From positions 496,001 through 560,000 of the forward strand of contig DS990592.1 in NCBI GenBank assembly GCA_000155695.1: a stretch of 64,000 bases of DNA, in the 5' to 3' direction. Both the position numbers and the translations under genes were made by a program. A model generated the notes under the pieces. It made no database searches and was not told the DNA's origin. It saw nothing but the letters and a program-made list of their open reading frames with translations. Source of the DNA: Verrucomicrobiia bacterium DG1235. GTDB taxonomy: Bacteria > Verrucomicrobiota > Verrucomicrobiia > Opitutales > Opitutaceae. This document shows, in pieces, positions 11,499 to 57,452 of the stretch (position 1 is its first letter; each line of letters begins with the position of its first letter).

Positions 11499-12734
11499 AT
11501 GAAAATTGTAACTATATCACTAAGCCATTTTTCTCGAATCGTCCAATCATCGCTTCTAACCGGCGTTTTCGTTCTGACTTCGCAAGTGTTCGCTGCGGGA
11601 CCGACGGTCTCAAACGTGACTGCTCAGCAACGGCCGAATACGAAGCTAGTAGACATCACCTACGACCTTGAGCACGACGAGGATTTGGCGAGCACGGTGA
11701 CGATAGAGGCGACGGCTGACGGCGAGAATTGGACGCTTCTGACTAATTTGACGAGCTCGTCCGCTCATGGTTTCGGAGTGGTCGAAGGCACAGGCAAAAG
11801 TGTCGTTTGGGCGGCGGAAGATGAATGGCCGGCTCAGCTGTTTCCAGCGGTCAAGGTTCGTGTACGGGCAAACGATGGCACTGGTGGTGGTGTGGATCCG
11901 GCGAATTTCTCGTTGGTTCCCGGCGGTGTTTTCGCGATGGGCTCACCAAATGGAGAAGTGGGGCGAGATGCTGTATCCGAGGTTTTGCATGACGTCACGC
12001 TGAACAAGTCGTTTTACATGGCGAAAACGGAAGTGACCTGGAGCGATTGGTCGGCTGTACGTGCGTTTGCGACTGCGAATGGGTATTCGGATATTGGAGT
12101 TGGCGCAAACGGTTCGATGGATGCTCCAGAGGGAGACCACCCTGTATCGAACGTTTCTTGGTGGGATGCCGTAAAATACTGCAATGCTCGCAGTGAACAA
12201 GAAGGGAAGACGCCGGTTTATTATACAGAAGAGTCACTCGGAGCGGGAAATGTGCTGCGCACAGGTACTGCAGCAGCTTTCGCTGATTTAAATGCTAACG
12301 GCTACCGATTGCCGACTGATGCGGAGTGGGAGTACGCGTGTCGCGCTGGAACTGAAACTGGGTTTTATACAGGGGAAGTCACACAATCAAATGCAGCGGA
12401 TCCGAATCTTGATTCAGCAGGTTGGTATGCGGAAAACAGCGGAGACAATACTCATGCCGCGGCTGGGAAGGCTGCGAACGCTTGGGGACTCTATGATACG
12501 CATGGAAATGTCTGGGAATGGTGCTGGGATTGGTATTCTCAAGATTTGAGCGTCGGCGAATTGGTCGACCCTACGGGGGCTGCCGAACCGAACGGAAATC
12601 AGCAAAGAGTAATTCGCGGCGGAGGGTATCTCGATCCCGCTGAAAACTGCCGCTCCGCGAGACGATTCAGGTTTCGGAATACGAGTAAGGACGTGACTCT
12701 AGGCTTCCGCGTTGCGGTGACATCGGTGCAGTAA
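11499..12734 (+). CDS. Exported formylglycine-generating-enzyme-like (SUMF1 domain) protein
   Basis: The protein has 411 residues and a signal peptide ending near SQVFAAG. Residues 35-130 form an Ig-like domain (VSNVTAQQRPNTKLVDITYDL), and the rest is an FGE-sulfatase fold: FSLVPGGVFAMGSP, KTEVTW, HPVSNVSWWDAVKYCN, YRLPTDAEWEYACRAGT, GNVWEWCWDW and VIRGGGY. True formylglycine-generating enzymes use two Cys near the end; here only the ENCRSARR Cys remains, the position of the first one being Asp/Pro-like. It is therefore better read as a C-type-lectin-fold or structural paralogue than as a sulfatase activator; no sulfatase gene is nearby. It is 48 bp downstream of the hydrolase-like gene, so they may share a message. 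Confidence 0.85.
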   Translation: MKIVTISLSHFSRIVQSSLLTGVFVLTSQVFAAGPTVSNVTAQQRPNTKLVDITYDLEHDEDLASTVTIEATADGENWTLLTNLTSSSAHGFGVVEGTGKSVVWAAEDEWPAQLFPAVKVRVRANDGTGGGVDPANFSLVPGGVFAMGSPNGEVGRDAVSEVLHDVTLNKSFYMAKTEVTWSDWSAVRAFATANGYSDIGVGANGSMDAPEGDHPVSNVSWWDAVKYCNARSEQEGKTPVYYTEESLGAGNVLRTGTAAAFADLNANGYRLPTDAEWEYACRAGTETGFYTGEVTQSNAADPNLDSAGWYAENSGDNTHAAAGKAANAWGLYDTHGNVWEWCWDWYSQDLSVGELVDPTGAAEPNGNQQRVIRGGGYLDPAENCRSARRFRFRNTSKDVTLGFRVAVTSVQ

Positions 12735-48817: not shown

Positions 48818-51271
48818 ATGAAGTCCAAGACGAAGCTAGCTGTTTTTTATGTGGTGGCATTATTTGCGTCGCATCTTTGGTTGGCGTTTTCGGGCGATCA
48901 AGCAGCGGATTCAGGGAAGGAGGTTGAGCTTGGGGAGAGCGATCGACTTTTCGTTTTGCTGGGAGAGGCCGGTGGTTTTGACAATGCGCTCGAGCCACTT
49001 TCGAATGAGCTCGGGAGGATTGAGAATACTGACGTTTGGGTACCGGACTTTGGGGCTGGGGCGTTTGAGTTGGATGACGTCGAAGGTTTTTTAGCCATGA
49101 ATGCGTCACCTTCGATCCAACTTGTTGGAAATCGCTACGGTTGCGTGGAAGCTTTGCTTTTGGCGGATCGCCTAGGAGAGAGGATTTCGAGCGTGACTTT
49201 GGTAGCGCCTGTCATTTCGACCCGTTTCGAGTTGCTTGGCGACGAGCGACTCAATGGAGCGCTGAAGGCTTTTCAGCTGGCGTGGTTTTGGGCTTTGGAG
49301 AATGGGGTGCCGCATTTCGGTCTAACGGATTTGTTGCCGTATAATTTGCGAAGCTCTCGGAGGGTTTTCGATGCGGACCAGGACGCGGCCTCTCAAGTGT
49401 TCGAAAGTTTGGATACGCGGGTATTCGTCGCGTATGGGGCGGATGGGGGTATTGCTGCGAATGGAGCGCTTGAGGCTTTCAGAGCGGTTCGCCCTCGCGT
49501 TGGTGATATTCGGTATCCAGGAACTGACGACGAAGTGCTGAGCGAGCATTCCGCTGAATTGGCGAAATCGCTCCTGTCCTTATCTCAGGTGGGTAGAGTC
49601 GTGGGAACGGGTCGCGTGGCGGAGAGTCCGCGCTTCGAGGACTTTTCGGGAATAAGGCTCAGCGCTTGGTGGGCGGGCTTTCTGCTTGCTGTAGCGACTT
49701 TTGCCAGTGAGGACTTCGCTTGTATTGGCGGGGGCTTGCTCGCGGCGAGCGGTTCAGTTGGCCTGACTCCGGCGATTCTAGGATGTATGCTTGGGATCTT
49801 CTTCGGCGATTTAGGGATTTATTTCATTGGTCGGATTTTTGGAACGGCGGCTGTGGATTTGCCGGTTTTGCGTCGCATCGTGTCGCCGAAGGCTCTGCGG
49901 AGGAGTTCGGATTGGTTTGCGAAGCGCGGGGTGGCCTTGGTGGTGCTGACGCGCTTTTTTCCCGGAAGTCGGGTGCCGACATATTTTGCGGCGGGAGTGG
50001 TAAAGGTAGATTGGATACGCTTTACTTTGGCTCTGCTTTTGGCATCCGCCATCTGGACGCCGATTCTCGTTCTCTGTTCGTTTTTTCTGGGAGAGGTCTT
50101 TCTCGAGCTTTTCGAATCGCTGGGGGCGGGAGGTTGGCTCGGGATTGTGGCGTTTATCCTTTGCTTCGCGTTTGGGGTGCGCCTGTTCGCGAAATTGGCG
50201 AGCTGGAAGGGGCGTCGACTTCTATATTCGAGCTGGCGAAGGCTGACAGGCTGGGAGTTTTGGCCGATTTGGGCGGTCTATGCTCCTGTCGTTTTCCAGA
50301 TACTTTGGCTAGCGATTCGGCATCGTTCGGTGTCGCTCCCTTTTTCTGTCAACTCTTGCATGCCGGCGAGTGGACTGGTCTATGAATCGAAAATTCAGAT
50401 TCTTGAGCATTTGGAAAGGGCGGGGGTGCCGATTGCTCGATTCGAGGCGATTCGGCTCGAACTCTCGAGTGAGGAAAAATTGGCCAGACTGGAGGCGTTT
50501 ATGGAGCGGGTGAACTTGTCGTATCCGGTGGCTCTAAAACCGGATGTTGGGCAACGTGGGCAAGGTGTGGTGATTGCGAAGACTGTGGAGGAGGCGAAGG
50601 CGTTTTTTGAGAAGCAGGAGGAGGATACGATTGCTCAGGAGTACATTGGCGGATCCGAGTATGGAGTTTTCTACCATCGTTTCCTTTCAGAGGAGTCTGG
50701 GGTGGTGTCGTCGATTACGGATAAGAGAACGGTTTTTGTGATCGGCGATGGCAGGTCCAATTTGGAGACTTTGATTTTGAGGGACGAGAGGGCGGTCTGT
50801 ATGGCGGCGTATTTTCTTAGCGAATACGAGTCGGAGCTGGAGCGAGTGTTGAGCGACGGGGAAAAGTTTATGCTGGCGTCAATTGGCACGCACAGTCGCG
50901 GAGCGGTTTTTTTGGATGGGGCGGAGTTGATAACGCCGGAGTTGAGCGAGGCGGTGGACAGGTTTTCCCGCGACGTGGAGGGGTTTCACTTTGGGCGTTA
51001 TGATCTCCGGGTGCCGAGCCCTGAGCACTTGAAGCGAGGGGAGGGCATTCGGGTGATCGAGCTTAACGGGATCACCTCGGAACCGACAAACATGTACGAT
51101 CCGAAGCATGGTCCGTTTTTCGGCTGGGCGAGTCTGATGCGGCAGTGGAGGCTGATTTTCGCCTTGGCAAAAGAAAACCGGCTCTCAGGACACGAGCCGG
51201 TTTCGAAAAGGTATGTTCTGAGGCTGGCGATCAGCTATCTCCGAGGCGTTCCTTCGCGAGACCTTTTTTGA
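48818..51271 (+). CDS. Three-part fusion: alpha/beta-hydrolase-like, DedA membrane domain, ATP-grasp
   Basis: The 817-residue protein has an N-terminal anchor and an alpha/beta-hydrolase-like domain (residues 35-260) whose elbow reads LVGNRYGCVEALLLA, so the usual Ser is Arg. Residues 283-480 form a DedA/SNARE-associated membrane unit with FASEDFACIGGGLLAASG, GIFFGDLGIYFIGRIFG and LTRFFPGSRVPTYFAAGVV. Residues 500-800 form an ATP-grasp ligase domain (YPVALKPDVGQRGQGVVIA, QEYIGGSEYGVF, RVIELNGITSEPTN). DedA proteins move phospholipids across membranes; ATP-grasp enzymes ligate carboxylates to amines. The fusion suggests lipid or polymer modification coupled to transport. Its last 41 bp overlap the convergent lipoprotein gene. 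Confidence 0.82.
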   Translation: MKSKTKLAVFYVVALFASHLWLAFSGDQAADSGKEVELGESDRLFVLLGEAGGFDNALEPLSNELGRIENTDVWVPDFGAGAFELDDVEGFLAMNASPSIQLVGNRYGCVEALLLADRLGERISSVTLVAPVISTRFELLGDERLNGALKAFQLAWFWALENGVPHFGLTDLLPYNLRSSRRVFDADQDAASQVFESLDTRVFVAYGADGGIAANGALEAFRAVRPRVGDIRYPGTDDEVLSEHSAELAKSLLSLSQVGRVVGTGRVAESPRFEDFSGIRLSAWWAGFLLAVATFASEDFACIGGGLLAASGSVGLTPAILGCMLGIFFGDLGIYFIGRIFGTAAVDLPVLRRIVSPKALRRSSDWFAKRGVALVVLTRFFPGSRVPTYFAAGVVKVDWIRFTLALLLASAIWTPILVLCSFFLGEVFLELFESLGAGGWLGIVAFILCFAFGVRLFAKLASWKGRRLLYSSWRRLTGWEFWPIWAVYAPVVFQILWLAIRHRSVSLPFSVNSCMPASGLVYESKIQILEHLERAGVPIARFEAIRLELSSEEKLARLEAFMERVNLSYPVALKPDVGQRGQGVVIAKTVEEAKAFFEKQEEDTIAQEYIGGSEYGVFYHRFLSEESGVVSSITDKRTVFVIGDGRSNLETLILRDERAVCMAAYFLSEYESELERVLSDGEKFMLASIGTHSRGAVFLDGAELITPELSEAVDRFSRDVEGFHFGRYDLRVPSPEHLKRGEGIRVIELNGITSEPTNMYDPKHGPFFGWASLMRQWRLIFALAKENRLSGHEPVSKRYVLRLAISYLRGVPSRDLF

Positions 51272-51992
51272 CGAATACGACCACTTCGTCGTCGCTTTTG
51301 AGCTTAACTGTGGTGGATGTTTCGGTGTCTTCGCCGATGTAGTCGGTCGCGGCGGATGCCATGATCGGCAGGTATTCACGAAGGTCGTTGCTTTCGTCTT
51401 CGTTGGTGACGGTGACGCTCCAGAGCTCTTCGGCAGGGGCGTCGCCCGATTCGGAAAGTTTGTTCTGTTTAGCGGTAAGGACCATGTATTTTTCGTTTAT
51501 GATAATGGTCCGGGCCTGCTGCGAGTAGCCGATGAGCTCGGTCGACCTGCGTCCGGGGACGTAGATTCGAATGGTACGAATCTTTCCAGTGGCGGGATCG
51601 CGAACCTGCTGTATTTGGTAGTGACCTGGCCCTTGGACAGTCCGGTACTCGGGGATCTCGATGACGCGAACCTCTTGGCGGGGCGGCTCCATGCCGTAGT
51701 CGACTTCGATAACCATGTCGGCCTCCAGCGGATCAAGGGCCTCATACATGCCTTTGGCGGAAAGAGCGGTTTTGATCCAGCTAACTGTTTCCTTGTAGCG
51801 AAGATCAGTAGTGTCCGTAGCGGGATCGCGCGGAACGAGGACGTATGAGTCGGCGTCTGGATCTATCGGCTGGGGATTTTTAATTGCGTCGACCTGCATC
51901 TCGTAAGTCGTGTTGCAGGCTTGCATGAGCAAGGCGATGACCAGGCCGACCGCGGCGTTGCGGATGTTTTTGGCGTGGTGTAGAATTTTCAT
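51231..51992 (-). CDS. Lipoprotein with DUF4136-like body
   Basis: A 253-residue protein with a lipoprotein signal: hydrophobic stretch GLVIALLMQACN with lipobox Cys. The mature part (DADSYVLVPRDP, SWIKTALSAKGMYEALDPLEADMVIEVDYGM) has the order of blocks seen in the DUF4136-type outer-membrane lipoproteins: a domain with a helix and mixed sheet. It would sit on the periplasmic face of the outer or inner membrane. It follows the glycine-zipper lipoprotein gene by 35 bp in the same direction, and its 3' end overlaps the convergent fusion gene by 41 bp. Confidence 0.75.
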   Translation of the reverse strand: MKILHHAKNIRNAAVGLVIALLMQACNTTYEMQVDAIKNPQPIDPDADSYVLVPRDPATDTTDLRYKETVSWIKTALSAKGMYEALDPLEADMVIEVDYGMEPPRQEVRVIEIPEYRTVQGPGHYQIQQVRDPATGKIRTIRIYVPGRRSTELIGYSQQARTIIINEKYMVLTAKQNKLSESGDAPAEELWSVTVTNEDESNDLREYLPIMASAATDYIGEDTETSTTVKLKSDDEVVVFVKKGLAKERLGDS

Positions 51993-52027: not shown

Positions 52028-52642
52028 TTAGAGTTGTGGGGCGGAGGGCTCCTCAGTAGTCTTTTTGTAGGCGGTAGTTGTTCCCCCTTCGAGCTCTGCG
52101 AGTTCTTTTTCGAGACGTGTTGCTTCCGCGAGGGCCTCCTTTTCTCGTTCTTCGAGTTCGTCTAGCTGACGTTTGCGCTCGATGGCGTCGTCTCTTCGTT
52201 TTTGGAGGATGGCCAGCTGTTCTTCTGCTGTTTCGGCGCGGCTGGTCATTTCATCGAGTTCCTCCTCCGTGATGCGGAATCCTTCAGCGATTTCCAGTTC
52301 TTCGTGGAGTTGGGCCTTTTCTTTCTCCTGAGCCCGTTTTTGCATGGCGATGGCCTGGTTGTAGGCTCGTTGCTGGGCGAGAGTGTCTTGACGTTTGTTT
52401 TCGCGGCCTTGGGCGACTGCTCCGATGACGGTTCCGATAGCGGCGCCGGCAACACCTGCGGTGGCAATTCCGCCCGCGTCTTCACCGGCGATGAGTCCGC
52501 CTACGGCACCCACGGCACCCCCCATGGTGGCCCCTTTCACGGTTTTCGAGGCGGCGGGTCCGGCGCATCCGGATTGAAAGAGTAGAGCAACCACGGCCAT
52601 GATTGCGATCGGTGTTGAGATTAGGGCATTCTTCCGGTTCAT
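52028..52642 (-). CDS. Glycine-zipper lipoprotein with coiled-coil tail
   Basis: A 204-residue protein. A signal peptide ends in the lipobox LFQSGCAG. Residues 38-85 contain a glycine-zipper (GGAVGAVGGLIAGEDAGGIA, then GAAIGTVIGAV), a membrane-inserting or oligomerising motif. The remainder is a strongly charged coiled coil (RKRQLDELEEREKEALAEAT). It is probably an envelope protein that spans or tethers membranes. It is cotranscribed with the next lipoprotein and divergent from the channel/VWA operon, whose upstream palindrome lies 54 bp from its start. Confidence 0.75.
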   Translation of the reverse strand: MNRKNALISTPIAIMAVVALLFQSGCAGPAASKTVKGATMGGAVGAVGGLIAGEDAGGIATAGVAGAAIGTVIGAVAQGRENKRQDTLAQQRAYNQAIAMQKRAQEKEKAQLHEELEIAEGFRITEEELDEMTSRAETAEEQLAILQKRRDDAIERKRQLDELEEREKEALAEATRLEKELAELEGGTTTAYKKTTEEPSAPQL

Positions 52643-52870: not shown

Positions 52871-53719
52871 ATGAAGAGGAACAGCTTTCTGTCCCGCGAG
52901 TTTTTAATACTAACACTTGGCCTCGTATTTTCCGTCCTCGTCGTTTTCTCGACCTATAGGCTGTACGTATGGCCGATTGCCCAGGACATCGAGATCGCTA
53001 GCCTCGTCGAGGCCAATCAGAATCCGGACAAGCCGATGGTCGCCAATCGCTCGATCATCATCATTTTGAAGGACAAGGAGCAGATGGTTTGTCTGATGCT
53101 GATGCTTTGGGCGCTCATCATCATCGCCTACAAGACGATTCGGGTGGTGGGAGAGCGTTCGATTGTGAGCTATCCCTTTCTCGGAATCTCTAAGGGGGAG
53201 CGAATCATACCTGAGGAGGCTCTTAGCCACTACAAGGATTTGAAGAGTGACGTTAACCGAAGCGCCAGTCTGAAGGACAAGATTTTGCCGGACATCATAT
53301 TGGCGGCTTTGCATCGATTTGATTCTACTCATTCGATTCAGGACGCGTCTCTCGCGGTGCACGAGCGCTCTGAAATGGCGTACGACCAGCTGGATTCGGA
53401 CTTGGGGCTTCTTCGTTACATCGCTTGGGCGATTCCTTCGGTAGGATTCATCGGAACGGTTCGCGGTATCGGCGAGGCGCTTGCCTTGGCGGATGAGGCG
53501 ATTCGCGGAGACATCTCCGGAGTGACGGCGGCGCTTGGGTTGGCTTTTAATTCCACTTTGATTGCCCTGTTGCTCAGTATCGCGTTGATGTTCTTCCTGC
53601 ACTTGCTGCAGTCGAAGCAGGAGAAGCTTTTGATTGATTTGAAGGATTTTGCCTCTAAGCGCGTGATTGCCTTGATGAAGACTCCCGAGCACGAAGAAAC
53701 GCATATCAGCTTCACCTGA
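52871..53719 (+). CDS. MotA/TolQ/ExbB-type channel protein
   Basis: The 282-residue membrane protein has four hydrophobic spans: LILTLGLVFSVLVVFSTYRLY, VCLMLMLWALIIIAYKTI, LLRYIAWAIPSVGFIGTVRG and GVTAALGLAFNSTLIALLLS. The third and fourth carry the family signature IPSVGFIGTVRGIGEALA and LGLAFNSTLIAL. TolQ/ExbB/MotA subunits pass protons or sodium ions to power a partner. Here no classic ExbD, TolR or MotB follows; instead an Hsp70-like gene and two VWA proteins do, which carry an ExbD-like membrane helix. It is the first gene of the four-gene operon, with 35 bp to the next. Confidence 0.85.
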   Translation: MKRNSFLSREFLILTLGLVFSVLVVFSTYRLYVWPIAQDIEIASLVEANQNPDKPMVANRSIIIILKDKEQMVCLMLMLWALIIIAYKTIRVVGERSIVSYPFLGISKGERIIPEEALSHYKDLKSDVNRSASLKDKILPDIILAALHRFDSTHSIQDASLAVHERSEMAYDQLDSDLGLLRYIAWAIPSVGFIGTVRGIGEALALADEAIRGDISGVTAALGLAFNSTLIALLLSIALMFFLHLLQSKQEKLLIDLKDFASKRVIALMKTPEHEETHISFT

Positions 53720-53754
53720 TTCGCACGCGGCAACCCTGAAATTTAAGATCAAGT

Positions 53755-55236
53755 ATGGCGACACTAGGAATTGAACTGAGTGATGTAGGCGTGCATGGAG
53801 TGGTGATTGAGGACGACGGGTCTTCTCGCACGATACAGCTAGGCAGCGACACGGAGCGACTTCCGGCATACGCTTATGCCGGTTCAAACGCAGGCACGCT
53901 CGTGTTTGGCGCGGAAGCGCAGGAGCTGGGGCAGGTTTTTCCGCGGCGGGTGAATTCGTCCTTTATAGATGAGCTCTCTCTGCAGTCGACCAACTTTGAA
54001 GGGCGTCAGTCACGGATTGCGTATTCGCAGATTGCATACAAGTTTCTCAGAGAATTAGTTGACCGAATAGGGAAGGAGGTTTCCTCGGTAGATCGAGTTG
54101 TGATCGCGGTTCCAGGGCATTACCTCGAGCAAAACGAGCTGTCCGAGCAGCGGATCGGAATCCTGCTGGGAATTCTGAGTGACTTGAAGGTGCCGGTTGT
54201 GGGAGTTGTCGATATGGCAGCGGCTTCGTTGTACAGCGAAGGTCTGTGGGGAGTGGCGGAAGGCGAGCGCTTGTTTCATTTGGATCTCTTGCTCCACGCC
54301 ACGCATATCACGGTCTTTAACAAGAGGTACGGTTTGGAGCGGGTTTATTTCTCCCGACAGCCGCAAAGCGGGTTTCATTCGATGCAGGAGCGTTTTGCGA
54401 ACGCGTTGGCAAACCGCTTTCTGAAGCAGACTTCTTTTGACATTACGGAAGATCGCAAGATCGAGCAGGCTTTTCATGCTCAGACTCGCGAGATGCTCTT
54501 TCATCTAGGGAAGGTTGGCGAGGCGAGCTTGGAGGTTTCGACCAAGGAAAAGTCTCGCCAGATGACCGTCACGCGCGATCTCGCGGCTCTGGACCTCGCT
54601 CCTTATGTCAAAGTGCTCACTCAGGTATTGCTAAGGGCGGTGAACGATTTCGGCGCTGGGGATCTTCCTGTGCAGGTAATTCTTTCGGAGAGAGCTGCGG
54701 CGATTCAAGGCTTGAAAGAGTCGATCATCGCTCAAGGCGTGGGCGTCGTGAAGCAGCTGCCGGCGGAAAGCGCTGCGTTTGGCGCGGCAAACCTGGGGAA
54801 GACTTGGGAACTGCCAGAAACGATTGAGGAGGTCCGGGTGGAGACGGGGATCAATCTCGACGTGCCTCAGGAGGGCGAGGGTGGCTCGGTGCAGGCTCGC
54901 GTTCCCGTGGGAGCGATACGTTTGCTGAAGCATGGCAAGTCTCTGAACCCGACGCATATCGTTTGCGACGGGCTTGCCTATGAGCTTGGCACGGGCGACT
55001 TCATTATCGGATTTGGCGACTCAGAGGACTTTGACCTTGTCGTGGAGCGTGACCTAACGCCATCTCCCGCGGAGCTGTTCCGGTTGAAATTTGACGATGA
55101 CCGTTGGATTTTGGCGGAATCGAAAAGCACGATTATCGAATCGGTATCCACTACGAGCCTACGAGCAGGCGACTCCTTTGAAGTGGCTTTACCCGGACGT
55201 CGTAAGCAGCTGCTCCTCATACATTGTATTCAGTAA
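53755..55236 (+). CDS. Hsp70-like ATPase with FHA-like tail
   Basis: A 493-residue soluble protein. The start MATLGIELSDVGVHGVVIED and the segments VDRVVIAVPGHYLEQNELSEQRIGI and VGVVDMAAASLYSEG place it in the actin/Hsp70 fold, with the Hsp70-like order of phosphate loops; it lacks the peptide-binding domain. The final 95 residues (LGTGDFIIGFGDSEDFDLVV, a SPAELFRLKF segment, LRAGDSFEV) read like a degenerate FHA domain. A role as ATP-driven switch binding phosphorylated partners is plausible. It sits between the channel gene and the VWA genes, 22 bp before the next. Confidence 0.75.
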   Translation: MATLGIELSDVGVHGVVIEDDGSSRTIQLGSDTERLPAYAYAGSNAGTLVFGAEAQELGQVFPRRVNSSFIDELSLQSTNFEGRQSRIAYSQIAYKFLRELVDRIGKEVSSVDRVVIAVPGHYLEQNELSEQRIGILLGILSDLKVPVVGVVDMAAASLYSEGLWGVAEGERLFHLDLLLHATHITVFNKRYGLERVYFSRQPQSGFHSMQERFANALANRFLKQTSFDITEDRKIEQAFHAQTREMLFHLGKVGEASLEVSTKEKSRQMTVTRDLAALDLAPYVKVLTQVLLRAVNDFGAGDLPVQVILSERAAAIQGLKESIIAQGVGVVKQLPAESAAFGAANLGKTWELPETIEEVRVETGINLDVPQEGEGGSVQARVPVGAIRLLKHGKSLNPTHIVCDGLAYELGTGDFIIGFGDSEDFDLVVERDLTPSPAELFRLKFDDDRWILAESKSTIIESVSTTSLRAGDSFEVALPGRRKQLLLIHCIQ

Positions 55237-55258
55237 TGCCTGACGAGGTGATCAATAA

Positions 55259-56323
55259 ATGAGTCGAAAGCGTAAAGAAACCGAAGTTTTTAGCCTCTCC
55301 TTCCTCGACTGTATCTGTTGTGGATTTGGAGCGGTTCTGCTGTTGTTCGTGCTAACCGCTAGTCGCAAGGCTGAAACGATGGACGATCTGCAGTCGAAGA
55401 TCATGGAAGTGATCGGAGAGATGGAGAACGAGATCGCCCTTAAGGATAAGACGATTGAGGATCTGAATCTCAGCCTGGCTTACGAAACGCAACGGAAGGA
55501 CGAAAGCGGCGCTCGTCTAACGGACGTGAAGAAACGCCACACGGAGCTCGACGAGATGTTGAAGCTTTTGTTGATGCAGTTGGCCGCGATCGAGGAAGAG
55601 CTCGGCAAACTGATAGACGATAAGGAGAACATGCCCAAGCAGGAGGAGAAGGTTCCTATCCCAATTCCGAATCCCGACCGACGTCAGTATTTGACTGGAT
55701 TCGATATTCTGGGGAATCAGGTTTTGTTTCTGGTAGAGGCGTCCGGCGGTATGACTGCGGATACGATCGTGGAGGCAACGGAGTTTGCGGACAAGACGGA
55801 GAAAGAGCGCCGTGAGTCGCCGAAGTGGAAGCGCGTGAAGCTCGCGTTGCGTTGGTTGATCGCCAACATGAAGGAAGGCGCGAACTACAAGATCATCTTC
55901 TTCAATAACGAGTTGGTTCCCCTCGAAGTTGGCTTTGGCCGCGACTGGTTCGATCCGATGGATAATAATTTGACGGTAGATGTCCTCAACGCGATCGATG
56001 ATATCACGCCCGGTGGAGGGGCGAACTTGGAAAAGGCGTTCGGCATCGTCAACGAGCTCCCGATTGAGCCGGATCGCCTGGTTTTGATATGCGACGGGTT
56101 GCCGACGCTTTCCGATTCTTACAGCGGTGGAAATCAGGTAGGTTACGACGATCGTGTCGCGATGCTTCGGGCAGCTCAGAACGCCCTTAAACTAAATCTT
56201 CCCGTGAATACGATTATGTATCCGTTAATGCCTGACACGGGCTCGGCGGTGCATTTTTGGCGATTGGCGAATGCGACCGATGGTTCGATGATCTGTCCTT
56301 CTGAAGGGTGGCCTAACATATGA
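55259..56323 (+). CDS. Membrane-anchored VWA protein, degenerate MIDAS (ExbD-like N-terminus)
   Basis: A 354-residue protein preceded by GAGGTGATC, a good ribosome binding site. Residues 9-26 are TEVFSLSFLDCICCGFGA, beginning a membrane helix with Asp17 in the same position as the ion-coupling Asp of ExbD/MotB helices. A coiled coil follows (residues 45-130). The C-terminal 200 residues are VWA-like, but the MIDAS start reads LFLVEASGGM instead of DxSxS; the rest (GADLEKAFGIV, RLVLICDGLP) is closer to normal. Its stop overlaps the next gene's ATG. It may be a stator subunit of the channel. Paralogous to the next protein. Confidence 0.8.
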   Translation: MSRKRKETEVFSLSFLDCICCGFGAVLLLFVLTASRKAETMDDLQSKIMEVIGEMENEIALKDKTIEDLNLSLAYETQRKDESGARLTDVKKRHTELDEMLKLLLMQLAAIEEELGKLIDDKENMPKQEEKVPIPIPNPDRRQYLTGFDILGNQVLFLVEASGGMTADTIVEATEFADKTEKERRESPKWKRVKLALRWLIANMKEGANYKIIFFNNELVPLEVGFGRDWFDPMDNNLTVDVLNAIDDITPGGGANLEKAFGIVNELPIEPDRLVLICDGLPTLSDSYSGGNQVGYDDRVAMLRAAQNALKLNLPVNTIMYPLMPDTGSAVHFWRLANATDGSMICPSEGWPNI

Positions 56324-57417
56324 GCCAACGCCGCAGAAAGACCGAGGTGTTTAGCCTCTCTTTTCTCGACTGTATCTGCTGTGGGTTCGGAGCGATCATC
56401 TTGTTGTTCATCGTTTCTATGGGGGTGCAGGCCACGGAGATCGTGAAGTTGCAGCGTATCCTCGAGAATGTGGTGATGCAGCGTCAATTGAAGTTGGCCG
56501 ATTATCAGATCAAAATCGACGAGTTGAACGTTAAGCTCGATTTGGAGAAAACTAAGCGCAAGCGACTTGATACGGAGCGCAACAAGCTGGACGCCTTAAT
56601 CGCGAAGCTTAAGCAGCAGATCAGCGATAAGGACAAGGCGAAGGAGTTGTTCATCACTGATCTCGAATCGATCAAGGAAGAGCTGGCTGCACTGCAGACT
56701 GAGCCTGATGTGGAGCAGAAGGTGATCGAGCCTGTGCCGATTGGGGTGCCTGTGGAGAGTAATGTGATCGCCTTTGTTATCGACACGTCAGGCAGTATGC
56801 GTGAGCACAGTACAAACCTTATCCATGCTCACGTGGTGCGTAAGTTCGAGGAGGTAATTCTTTCTTATCCGGAAGTAAAAGGTATCCAACTTCTGGATGC
56901 GTCTGGGCATTTTATCATGGGATCGCGAATGGGCGGGAAGTGGTTGCCCGATTCGCTGGAAATGCGCGAGGCGATGGTGCGTGCGGTGCGTCTCTACCCG
57001 TACGAGAGCGAGAGTAATCCTGTACCGGGCATCAAGCGGGCGATTCGCCAGCTTTATGATCCCAACGCGGAGGATTTGAAGTTTGGGATTTACGTCTTTG
57101 GCGACGAGTTCACGGGCAAGCCGGAGCCGGTGTTGCTGGAGATCCGTAAATTAAACAGAAACAAGGATGGGGATCGGATCGCGCGTATCAATGCGATCGG
57201 TTTTCCGAACGTGATACAGAGCGGCGCGATGCTGCTTGGGCAATCTGGGCTGAAGTTCGCCAAGCTGATGCACGACCTGACCTACGAGCACGGTGGGGCG
57301 TTTATCGGGCTGAATCGTGACAATCTCGATACGATCGATAGAAACGAACGCGAGCGCTATCCGACTCCAGTGCCGCCGCCGTCTAGAGGCGGTGGAGTGA
57401 TAATACGTTTTCCGTAG
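56320..57417 (+). CDS. Membrane-anchored VWA protein with intact MIDAS (ExbD-like N-terminus)
   Basis: A 365-residue paralogue with the identical TEVFSLSFLDCICCGFGA block and Asp17, followed by a helix, a coiled coil (LDLEKTKRKRLDTERNKLDA) and a VWA domain. Here the MIDAS motif is canonical: VIAFVIDTSGSM at about residue 147. It would bind a divalent metal and a protein ligand in the periplasm. ATG overlap (56320-56323) with the previous gene means coupled synthesis. It is the last gene of the operon; a strong terminator lies 7 bp past its stop. Confidence 0.85.
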   Translation: MSQRRRKTEVFSLSFLDCICCGFGAIILLFIVSMGVQATEIVKLQRILENVVMQRQLKLADYQIKIDELNVKLDLEKTKRKRLDTERNKLDALIAKLKQQISDKDKAKELFITDLESIKEELAALQTEPDVEQKVIEPVPIGVPVESNVIAFVIDTSGSMREHSTNLIHAHVVRKFEEVILSYPEVKGIQLLDASGHFIMGSRMGGKWLPDSLEMREAMVRAVRLYPYESESNPVPGIKRAIRQLYDPNAEDLKFGIYVFGDEFTGKPEPVLLEIRKLNRNKDGDRIARINAIGFPNVIQSGAMLLGQSGLKFAKLMHDLTYEHGGAFIGLNRDNLDTIDRNERERYPTPVPPPSRGGGVIIRFP

Positions 57418-57423
57418 TGACAG

Positions 57424-57452
57424 AAAAGGCCCGACATGTAGTCGGGCCTTTT
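57424..57452. terminator. Bidirectional terminator after the channel/VWA operon
   Basis: AAAAGGCCCGAC and GTCGGGCCTTTT form a perfect 12-bp stem with a five-base loop. A and T runs on the two sides allow it to end both the rightward operon and the leftward pyrE transcript. Confidence 0.88.

Follow-up and report, generated by a model that had tools for sequence, protein, structure and literature searches.

A TolQ-like channel encoded with a VWA protein pair and an Hsp70-fold protein in Verrucomicrobiia bacterium DG1235

Known motors of the 5:2 type drive flagellar rotation and gliding, and they provide the power for nutrient uptake, outer-membrane stability and phage defence. A locus of Verrucomicrobiia bacterium DG1235 raises the question of whether such a motor could be built from a MotA/TolQ/ExbB-type channel and two von Willebrand factor A (VWA) proteins, and what an Hsp70-like protein encoded between them would do there. 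The locus lies in a window of 64,000 nucleotides, the whole stretch of DNA analysed here (assembly GCA_000155695.1, contig DS990592.1, positions 496,001 to 560,000). It comprises four forward-strand genes, listed as open reading frames with starts picked by script: a channel gene (52871-53719, 282 amino acids (aa)), an Hsp70-fold gene (53755-55236, 493 aa), VWA1 (55259-56323, 354 aa) and VWA2 (56320-57417, 365 aa). The first two are 35 bp apart, the Hsp70-like gene and VWA1 22 bp, and VWA1 overlaps VWA2 by 4 bp. An initial annotation, made from the sequence alone, had described this unbroken run at 52871-57417 and interpreted it as an ion-driven machine. The observation was confirmed, with all four open reading frames in place on one strand, and the interpretation was partly supported. 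The operon is a real and widespread motor-type gene set, uncharacterized as far as we found. We put at roughly 0.6 the probability that it encodes an ion-driven 5:2 inner-membrane motor with VWA1 and VWA2 as shaft and head pair and the Hsp70-fold protein as cytosolic adaptor.

The VWA pair and its Asp17 helix

VWA1 is composed of an ExbD-like transpore helix carrying Asp17, a coiled coil and a VWA domain with an EASGG motif; VWA2 likewise has an Asp17 helix, and its VWA domain retains an intact DxSxS motif. As initially annotated, both proteins contain the same 18-residue block, TEVFSLSFLDCICCGFGA, with Asp17 in each. The two DNA copies of this block differ at 7 of 18 codons, all synonymously. 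Identity of the block is therefore held by selection and does not reflect a recent copy.

Homologous loci were collected in two ways. Pattern-scan loci, the best 80 of at least 280 confirmed, were found with D[CS][ILV][CS]CGFGA or F[VI][IF]DTSGSM; because these patterns contain Asp17 or residues of the metal ion-dependent adhesion site (MIDAS), VWA2 counts in this set are partly circular. Eighteen Verrucomicrobiota genomes came from a protein search that used no such pattern; a profile then located VWA1 in their loci. Asp17 was invariant in 94/94 VWA1 proteins with an N-terminus (3 partial VWA1 set aside) and in 98/98 VWA2 proteins, including 18/18 of each in the set found without a pattern. 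The initial annotation had named non-conservation of Asp17 as refuting its reading, and this was not seen.

That annotation had also placed Asp17 at the position of the Asp of ExbD, TolR and MotB. Here, the Asp-bearing helix was supported, and when its profile was compared with eight ExbD proteins from this genome, Asp aligned with Asp in every best hhalign alignment. Sequence homology to ExbD is weak, and the profile match is suggestive only. Neither VWA protein is among the 15 PF02472 matches of the genome, and no ExbD lies within 34 kb of the operon, the nearest PF02472 matches being at G000:C6:484151-484504 and from 588443, in coordinates that place the operon at 548871-553417. Sequence homology carries less of the case for an ExbD link than do co-occurrence, conservation and the lack of a local ExbD.

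Co-occurrence was strict. Protein searches detected VWA2 in 18 of 288 Verrucomicrobiota genomes and the channel subfamily, whose scores drop from 336.8 to 124.6 bits at its boundary, in the same 18. In these genomes, the channel is thus not regularly found without VWA genes, an outcome that the initial annotation had named as damaging to its reading; together with the invariant Asp17, this supports the VWA proteins as likely stator-like channel partners. In the class of the Halieaceae genome that holds locus L098 (G288), 22 of 229 genomes matched the VWA2 profile at E 0.001. Fourteen of them had a full-length strong match, each with a weaker second match within about 2 kb, as expected for VWA1. 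Pattern-scan loci were labelled Opitutales, Puniceicoccaceae, Kiritimatiellia, Gammaproteobacteria and Desulfobacterota groups, among others. Seventy loci, spread over Verrucomicrobiota, Kiritimatiellota, Pseudomonadota and Desulfobacterota, contain all four genes, always in one order, and the order channel, VWA1, VWA2 was kept in 83/83 loci with all three. An ExbB paralogue might by chance adjoin unrelated VWA genes while its true ExbD is encoded elsewhere, and the genome does hold 15 ExbD genes away from the operon. This explanation is contradicted by the constant order across four phyla and the 18/18 co-occurrence, and we give it next to no credence.

Compared as profiles, VWA1 and VWA2 align over almost their full length (hhalign E 8e-39). 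Pfam detected the VWA domain of the window's VWA2 weakly (PF13519, E 0.045) and matched no VWA model to the window's VWA1; 10 of 18 aligned VWA1 proteins, the window's own not included, matched PF13519 at E up to 0.1 (best 1.6e-9). The AlphaFold2 model of VWA2 consists of a single helix at residues 13-123 followed by a VWA domain, with a mean predicted local distance difference test score (pLDDT) of 81.6, a predicted template modelling score (pTM) of 0.58, and low confidence at 126-142 and at both ends. Its Foldseek matches in the PDB were VWA domains (E 1.6e-6). At 0.15 nm per residue, the modelled helix would extend over roughly 16.6 nm, counting its membrane part.

The window's MIDAS sequences, EASGG in VWA1 versus DTSGS in VWA2, agree with the annotated pairing of a degenerate with an intact site, but this pairing does not extend to the family as a rule. 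DxSxS was intact in 98/98 VWA2 proteins, and the first MIDAS residue of VWA1 was Asp in 57 of 95, Arg in 21 and Glu in 17, all 38 substitutions falling in Verrucomicrobiota loci. The pair is therefore always unequal, loss of the metal site is not general, and the degenerate VWA1 site is a lineage feature. In a tree of 28 VWA1 and 28 VWA2 proteins, drawn from 28 of the 99 loci, each formed one clade with support of 100/100 and several phyla within it. Thus, the VWA pair is old and has been retained as a pair, and these separate clades across phyla make a heteromeric VWA1/VWA2 shaft, as initially proposed, likely. The helices of the two proteins are nearly identical, so self-pairing would be feasible for either, and VWA1 dimers and VWA2 dimers could form two homodimeric motors with separate tasks on one channel gene. 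Such an arrangement would be expected to lose one gene occasionally, but both were present in 96 of 99 loci (slightly fewer genomes, as L045 and L046 are two contigs of one and the contig of L106 equals that of L045 in length), 48 of 96 pairs share the 4-bp overlap, and both clades are multi-phylum. We consider separate homodimeric motors unlikely.

The channel and the Hsp70-fold protein

The annotated identity of the channel is secure: it matched PF01618 in Pfam with 49.9 bits (cut-off 22.9; E 3.4e-13), in a genome with 19 matches to this family in total. TolQ and ExbB have a layout of three helices. By hydropathy, this channel has an additional N-terminal hydrophobic segment (residues 11-29), then a second segment (72-90) and the conserved pore helices. 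T196, R198 (within GTVRG) and T229 were each invariant in 84/84 channels. The channel profile matched no PDB chain at E 1e-5, and the threshold was therefore relaxed to E 10; in the weak match then obtained (E 0.037), T196 and T229 align with T145 and T178 of TolQ. The operon thereby resembles TolQR, ExbBD and MotAB in having a PF01618 channel with equivalents of these threonines and a helix with Asp; it differs in its shaft proteins, in which a long helix bears a VWA head and which have no PF02472 match. A further difference is GTVRG in this channel versus GTVWG in TolQ, which places an invariant Arg, R198, next to the pore threonine where TolQ has Trp. None of 12 GTV motifs from other channels of the same genome carried Arg (8 loci; 1 yielded no motif). 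It is possible that R198 is a signature or an ion-coupling residue of the channel subfamily.

The channel also matched a PADLOC ZorA2 model (E 2.2e-6), which would fit an anti-phage motor akin to Zorya, a system of ZorAB with cytosolic effectors. Zorya comprises a ZorAB motor with an OmpA-like head, and the operon is like it in pairing a 5:2-type motor with cytosolic partners. However, against ZorA2 models with lengths of 461 and 505, the better match extends over 88 residues of shared channel core, the VWA head is not OmpA-like, and a PADLOC scan confined to the four operon proteins detected no ZorB, ZorC or ZorD. A role of this type is highly improbable.

The second gene had been annotated as an actin/Hsp70-fold ATPase with an FHA-like tail. 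Its fold was upheld. The AlphaFold2 model (pLDDT 91.3, pTM 0.80) had DnaK and other Hsp70s as top Foldseek matches (E 1.4e-20) and matched the nucleotide-binding domain of 6w6e chain I with a template modelling score of 0.79; by sequence, the family profile matched Hsp70 chains with a best E of 2.2e-10. Pfam matched the window's protein to no family, and PF00012 was detected in 0/65 family members at E 0.01 and 0/15 at E 0.1. The alignment comprised 65 of 78 proteins; those omitted were partial, very short or, in some cases, close to others. The ATPase part of the claim was not supported. In two profile alignments to Hsp70 chains, the DLGGGT and GGST loops of Hsp70 face glycine-less stretches. 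A GG pair was present in 1/65 members at the phosphate-2 place and in 1/65 at the adenosine place, and G[TS][TS] at the phosphate-1 place in 0/65. These profile alignments and column counts over the 65 members, together with the columns of an hhalign mapping to a single DnaK (probability 9.6%), are the basis for loop loss. Because the phosphate loops are not kept, the designation of an Hsp70-like ATPase is doubtful, and the protein probably does not hydrolyse ATP. Ssz1, an Hsp70 not known to hydrolyse ATP, offers a comparison case. With no signal peptide seen and a sole hydrophobic stretch (134-152, by hydropathy) in the core of the predicted fold, we read the protein as cytosolic.

Its C-terminal tail, beta-rich and encoded at 54898-55236, did not match PF00498 (FHA) in the window's protein. 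Relatives carry a clear FHA domain at the same place, detected by Pfam in 16/65 whole Hsp70-like proteins (best 2.2e-14) and in 13/34 tails (best 4.3e-15; the 34 were aligned from 50 tails of at least 95 aa). S-R-x-H and G-T-F-L-N-G patterns occur in several aligned relatives' tails and are missing from the window's. We read the window's version as a probable degenerate FHA-derived domain. The protein accordingly resembles Hsp70/DnaK in the fold of its nucleotide-binding domain and differs in the loss of the phosphate loops and in a tail that occupies the position of the Hsp70 substrate-binding domain. The Hsp70-like gene is present in 71 of the 84 loci that contain channel and VWA1; in the other 13 the channel-VWA1 gap is 14-64 bp. 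It is therefore common but dispensable.

Genes around the operon

Directly 3' of VWA2 is a terminator-like hairpin (57424-57452, forward strand) with a perfect 12-bp stem, a 5-base loop and a T run; it was absent from the list of a simple terminator scanner and was found on direct check of the sequence. Upstream and divergent are two reverse-strand genes: one encodes a glycine-zipper envelope lipoprotein-like protein (52028-52642, 204 aa; weak PF13441 match, E 0.0073, below cut-off), and the next a DUF4136-like lipoprotein (51231-51992, 253 aa; PF13590, E 1.6e-4, below cut-off). Homologues lie upstream in 22 and 21 Opitutales-type loci, respectively, window counted. Both proteins are candidate partners of the motor, the glycine-zipper protein a periplasmic one. 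Another glycine-zipper lipoprotein is encoded in 7 Puniceicoccaceae-type loci, and a downstream glycine-zipper protein in 8 gammaproteobacterial loci; the one from L088, the sole one given to Pfam, has an OmpA domain. Thus, three lineages have a glycine-zipper envelope protein by the motor, in differing arrangements.

Several other genes were observed around these operons. On the forward strand at 48818-51271 the window encodes an unusual 817-aa fusion, with VTT (DedA-type) and RimK-like ATP-grasp domains above cut-offs and a weak N-terminal alpha/beta-hydrolase match. Downstream in loci of Halieaceae/Microbulbifer type (L098:8956-11726) are two lipoprotein-like genes without Pfam match and a Peptidase M48 gene; their clusters include 22, 21 and 28 loci, the last also with Opitutales loci. 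Beside VWA2 in L038 (8449-9612) and 13 other Opitutales-type loci, an opposite-strand gene downstream encodes a secreted-looking protein; that of L038 had no Pfam match, and no counterpart was seen downstream of the window's operon.

Outside Verrucomicrobiota (Kiritimatiellia locus L097 being counted there), a TPR gene and a PEGA-FGE gene precede the channel on its strand in 39/39 loci with more than 2.5 kb of upstream sequence. The search profiles were built from six loci each, and these seeds are counted among the 39. The TPR gene comes first, and the PEGA-FGE gene ends 210-1149 bp before the channel. A strongly hydrophobic segment is present in 39/39 PEGA-FGE and 36/39 TPR proteins. Pfam identified PEGA (E 1.3e-54) and FGE-sulfatase (E 7e-42) domains in the L098 PEGA-FGE protein, and FHA-like N-termini below cut-off in both PEGA-FGE proteins tried (L122, E 0.0033; L101, E 0.0089). 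A Ser/Thr kinase domain was above cut-off in 4 of 13 TPR proteins (L099, E 1e-25; L116; L113; L105) and weak in 3 (L097, L101, L128). The module, with kinase in some loci, is seen at L098:897-4490, L101:3-4318, L097:515-4812 and 36 more loci. Together these genes have the appearance of a phospho-signalling module.

In the Verrucomicrobiota set, an upstream FGE match was found in 2 of 37 loci (L051, L040), and TPR matches in nine loci were set aside as generic-looking, being downstream of the channel and 8-10 kb off. The window's genome has no PEGA-FGE protein; two matches cover the FGE part only. One of these is in the window at 11928-12713 (forward strand; G000:C6:507928-508713), in a 412-aa frame far from the operon. 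The best reading of the window is a reduced version of the motor set.

FHA, kinase, TPR, PEGA and FGE partners in other lineages resemble signalling or scaffold parts, and the operon might on that account be a sensor, its VWA heads binding a periplasmic ligand or cell-wall feature, the channel then being gated or the helices moved, and the Hsp70-like/FHA protein relaying the state. However, the channel has kept, without exception, the pore residues of energy-coupled motors, and the window's lineage has retained the core with kinase and PEGA-FGE genes missing beside it. A sensor is, in our estimate, an improbable alternative, about on a par with separate homodimers.

A proposed envelope motor and its relatives

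The core idea of the initial annotation, a channel with an Asp-helix VWA pair, is already published as a prediction. The TPH-vWA family comprises tolQ-like genes with heterologous vWA pairs and without tolR or exbD; its helices carry a conserved Asp, complexes were modelled with AlphaFold 3, and members are mainly from Proteobacteria and Verrucomicrobia (Williams-Jones et al. 2025, PMC12204202). The operon shares with that family the TolQ-like channel, the heterologous vWA pair, the Asp helix and the lack of an adjacent tolR or exbD, a likeness of features. The main text of the paper, figure 4c aside, contains no Hsp70, PEGA, chaperone or formylglycine, and the TPR gene it names belongs to its other, SHLS-type vWA family. 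SHLS-type transducers, the first family of that study, have an SHLS motif with a His in the transmembrane helix and tolR-like genes alongside (PMC12204202). This assignment was rejected for our operon: a His in the helix segment was seen in 2/94 VWA1 and 0/98 VWA2 proteins, leaving 92/94 and 98/98 without one, and no tolR-like gene was found near the window's operon. Several elements go beyond the TPH-vWA description and are new as far as we found: a gene for an Hsp70-fold/FHA protein, kinase-TPR and PEGA-FGE genes, GTVRG, and the history of the VWA pair as two clades. Our literature search returned no paper that links the motor with Hsp70-like, kinase or PEGA-FGE genes. A survey of MotAB relatives (PMC12505986) makes no mention of vWA or von Willebrand in the portion of its text available to us. 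As described in PMC11090510, the TerY-P triad and CoCoNuT type III-A systems also combine VWA with a kinase, some with Hsp70-like domains, and type III-A has duplicated VWA domains, one with an incomplete MIDAS. The VWA proteins of our operon differ from these in having an N-terminal membrane helix and adjoining a motor channel. PP2C, a component of the TerY-P triad, had no match among the neighbours given to Pfam, a scan of neighbours that was not exhaustive.

We propose an inner-membrane motor as the product of the operon, powered by ions, most likely protons. VWA1 and VWA2 would each contribute one transmembrane helix to a pair enclosed by five channel subunits, and this pair would replace ExbD, TolR or MotB. 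Passage of ions between the Asp17 residues of the shaft and the threonine ring of the channel would turn or shift the shaft, and the long coiled-coil stalk would transmit this motion to a periplasmic pair of VWA1 and VWA2 heads. The heads may grip a partner near the cell wall or outer membrane, for which the glycine-zipper lipoproteins are candidates. On the cytosolic side, the Hsp70-fold protein would act as a regulatory adaptor, its ATP hydrolysis probably lost, and in relatives its FHA tail may read a threonine phosphate, set for example by the kinase encoded upstream in some. What the analysis establishes is the gene content, the folds, the invariant residues, the co-occurrence and the age of the VWA pair; from these are inferred the stoichiometry, the ion, rotation and the direction of force, the heterodimer, the topology, the regulation and the target.

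Several observations weigh against this proposal. Our literature search found no function and no known phenotype for the operon. The hhalign score of the helix against ExbD is weak; column shuffling reached it in 1 of 100 trials with VWA1 and in 9 of 100 with VWA2. In one genome (G157), VWA2 is well inside another contig (L046/L045), away from the channel, Hsp70-like and VWA1 genes. The Hsp70-like gene is not essential to the motor. An FHA signature went undetected in 49/65 Hsp70-like proteins and in the window's, no kinase was found in 6 of 13 TPR proteins (L078, L085, L098, L118, L119, L120; several scanned proteins are cut by locus edges), and the window itself lacks both kinase and FHA signatures.

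A more elaborate version of the motor can be offered tentatively. In it, a membrane-anchored Ser/Thr kinase would phosphorylate one part of the complex, and an FHA-bearing Hsp70-fold pseudo-ATPase would bind that mark and engage or stall the pentameric channel. The channel would drive an obligate VWA heterodimer acting on PEGA/FGE/TPR or glycine-zipper envelope proteins, and the window would retain the motor with a vestigial adaptor. If this is true, we know of no earlier case of an Hsp70-fold protein serving an ion-driven 5:2 motor as a dedicated subunit.

Collectively, the gene content and conservation described here point to an envelope motor with a distinct type of shaft, in which two different VWA heads on a long stalk would be coupled to a cytosolic Hsp70-fold partner, in at least four phyla. 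Parts found in some lineages suggest that phosphorylation may be read by an FHA domain, and with this gene set the question of how cells turn an ion-driven envelope motor on or off becomes accessible to experiment.

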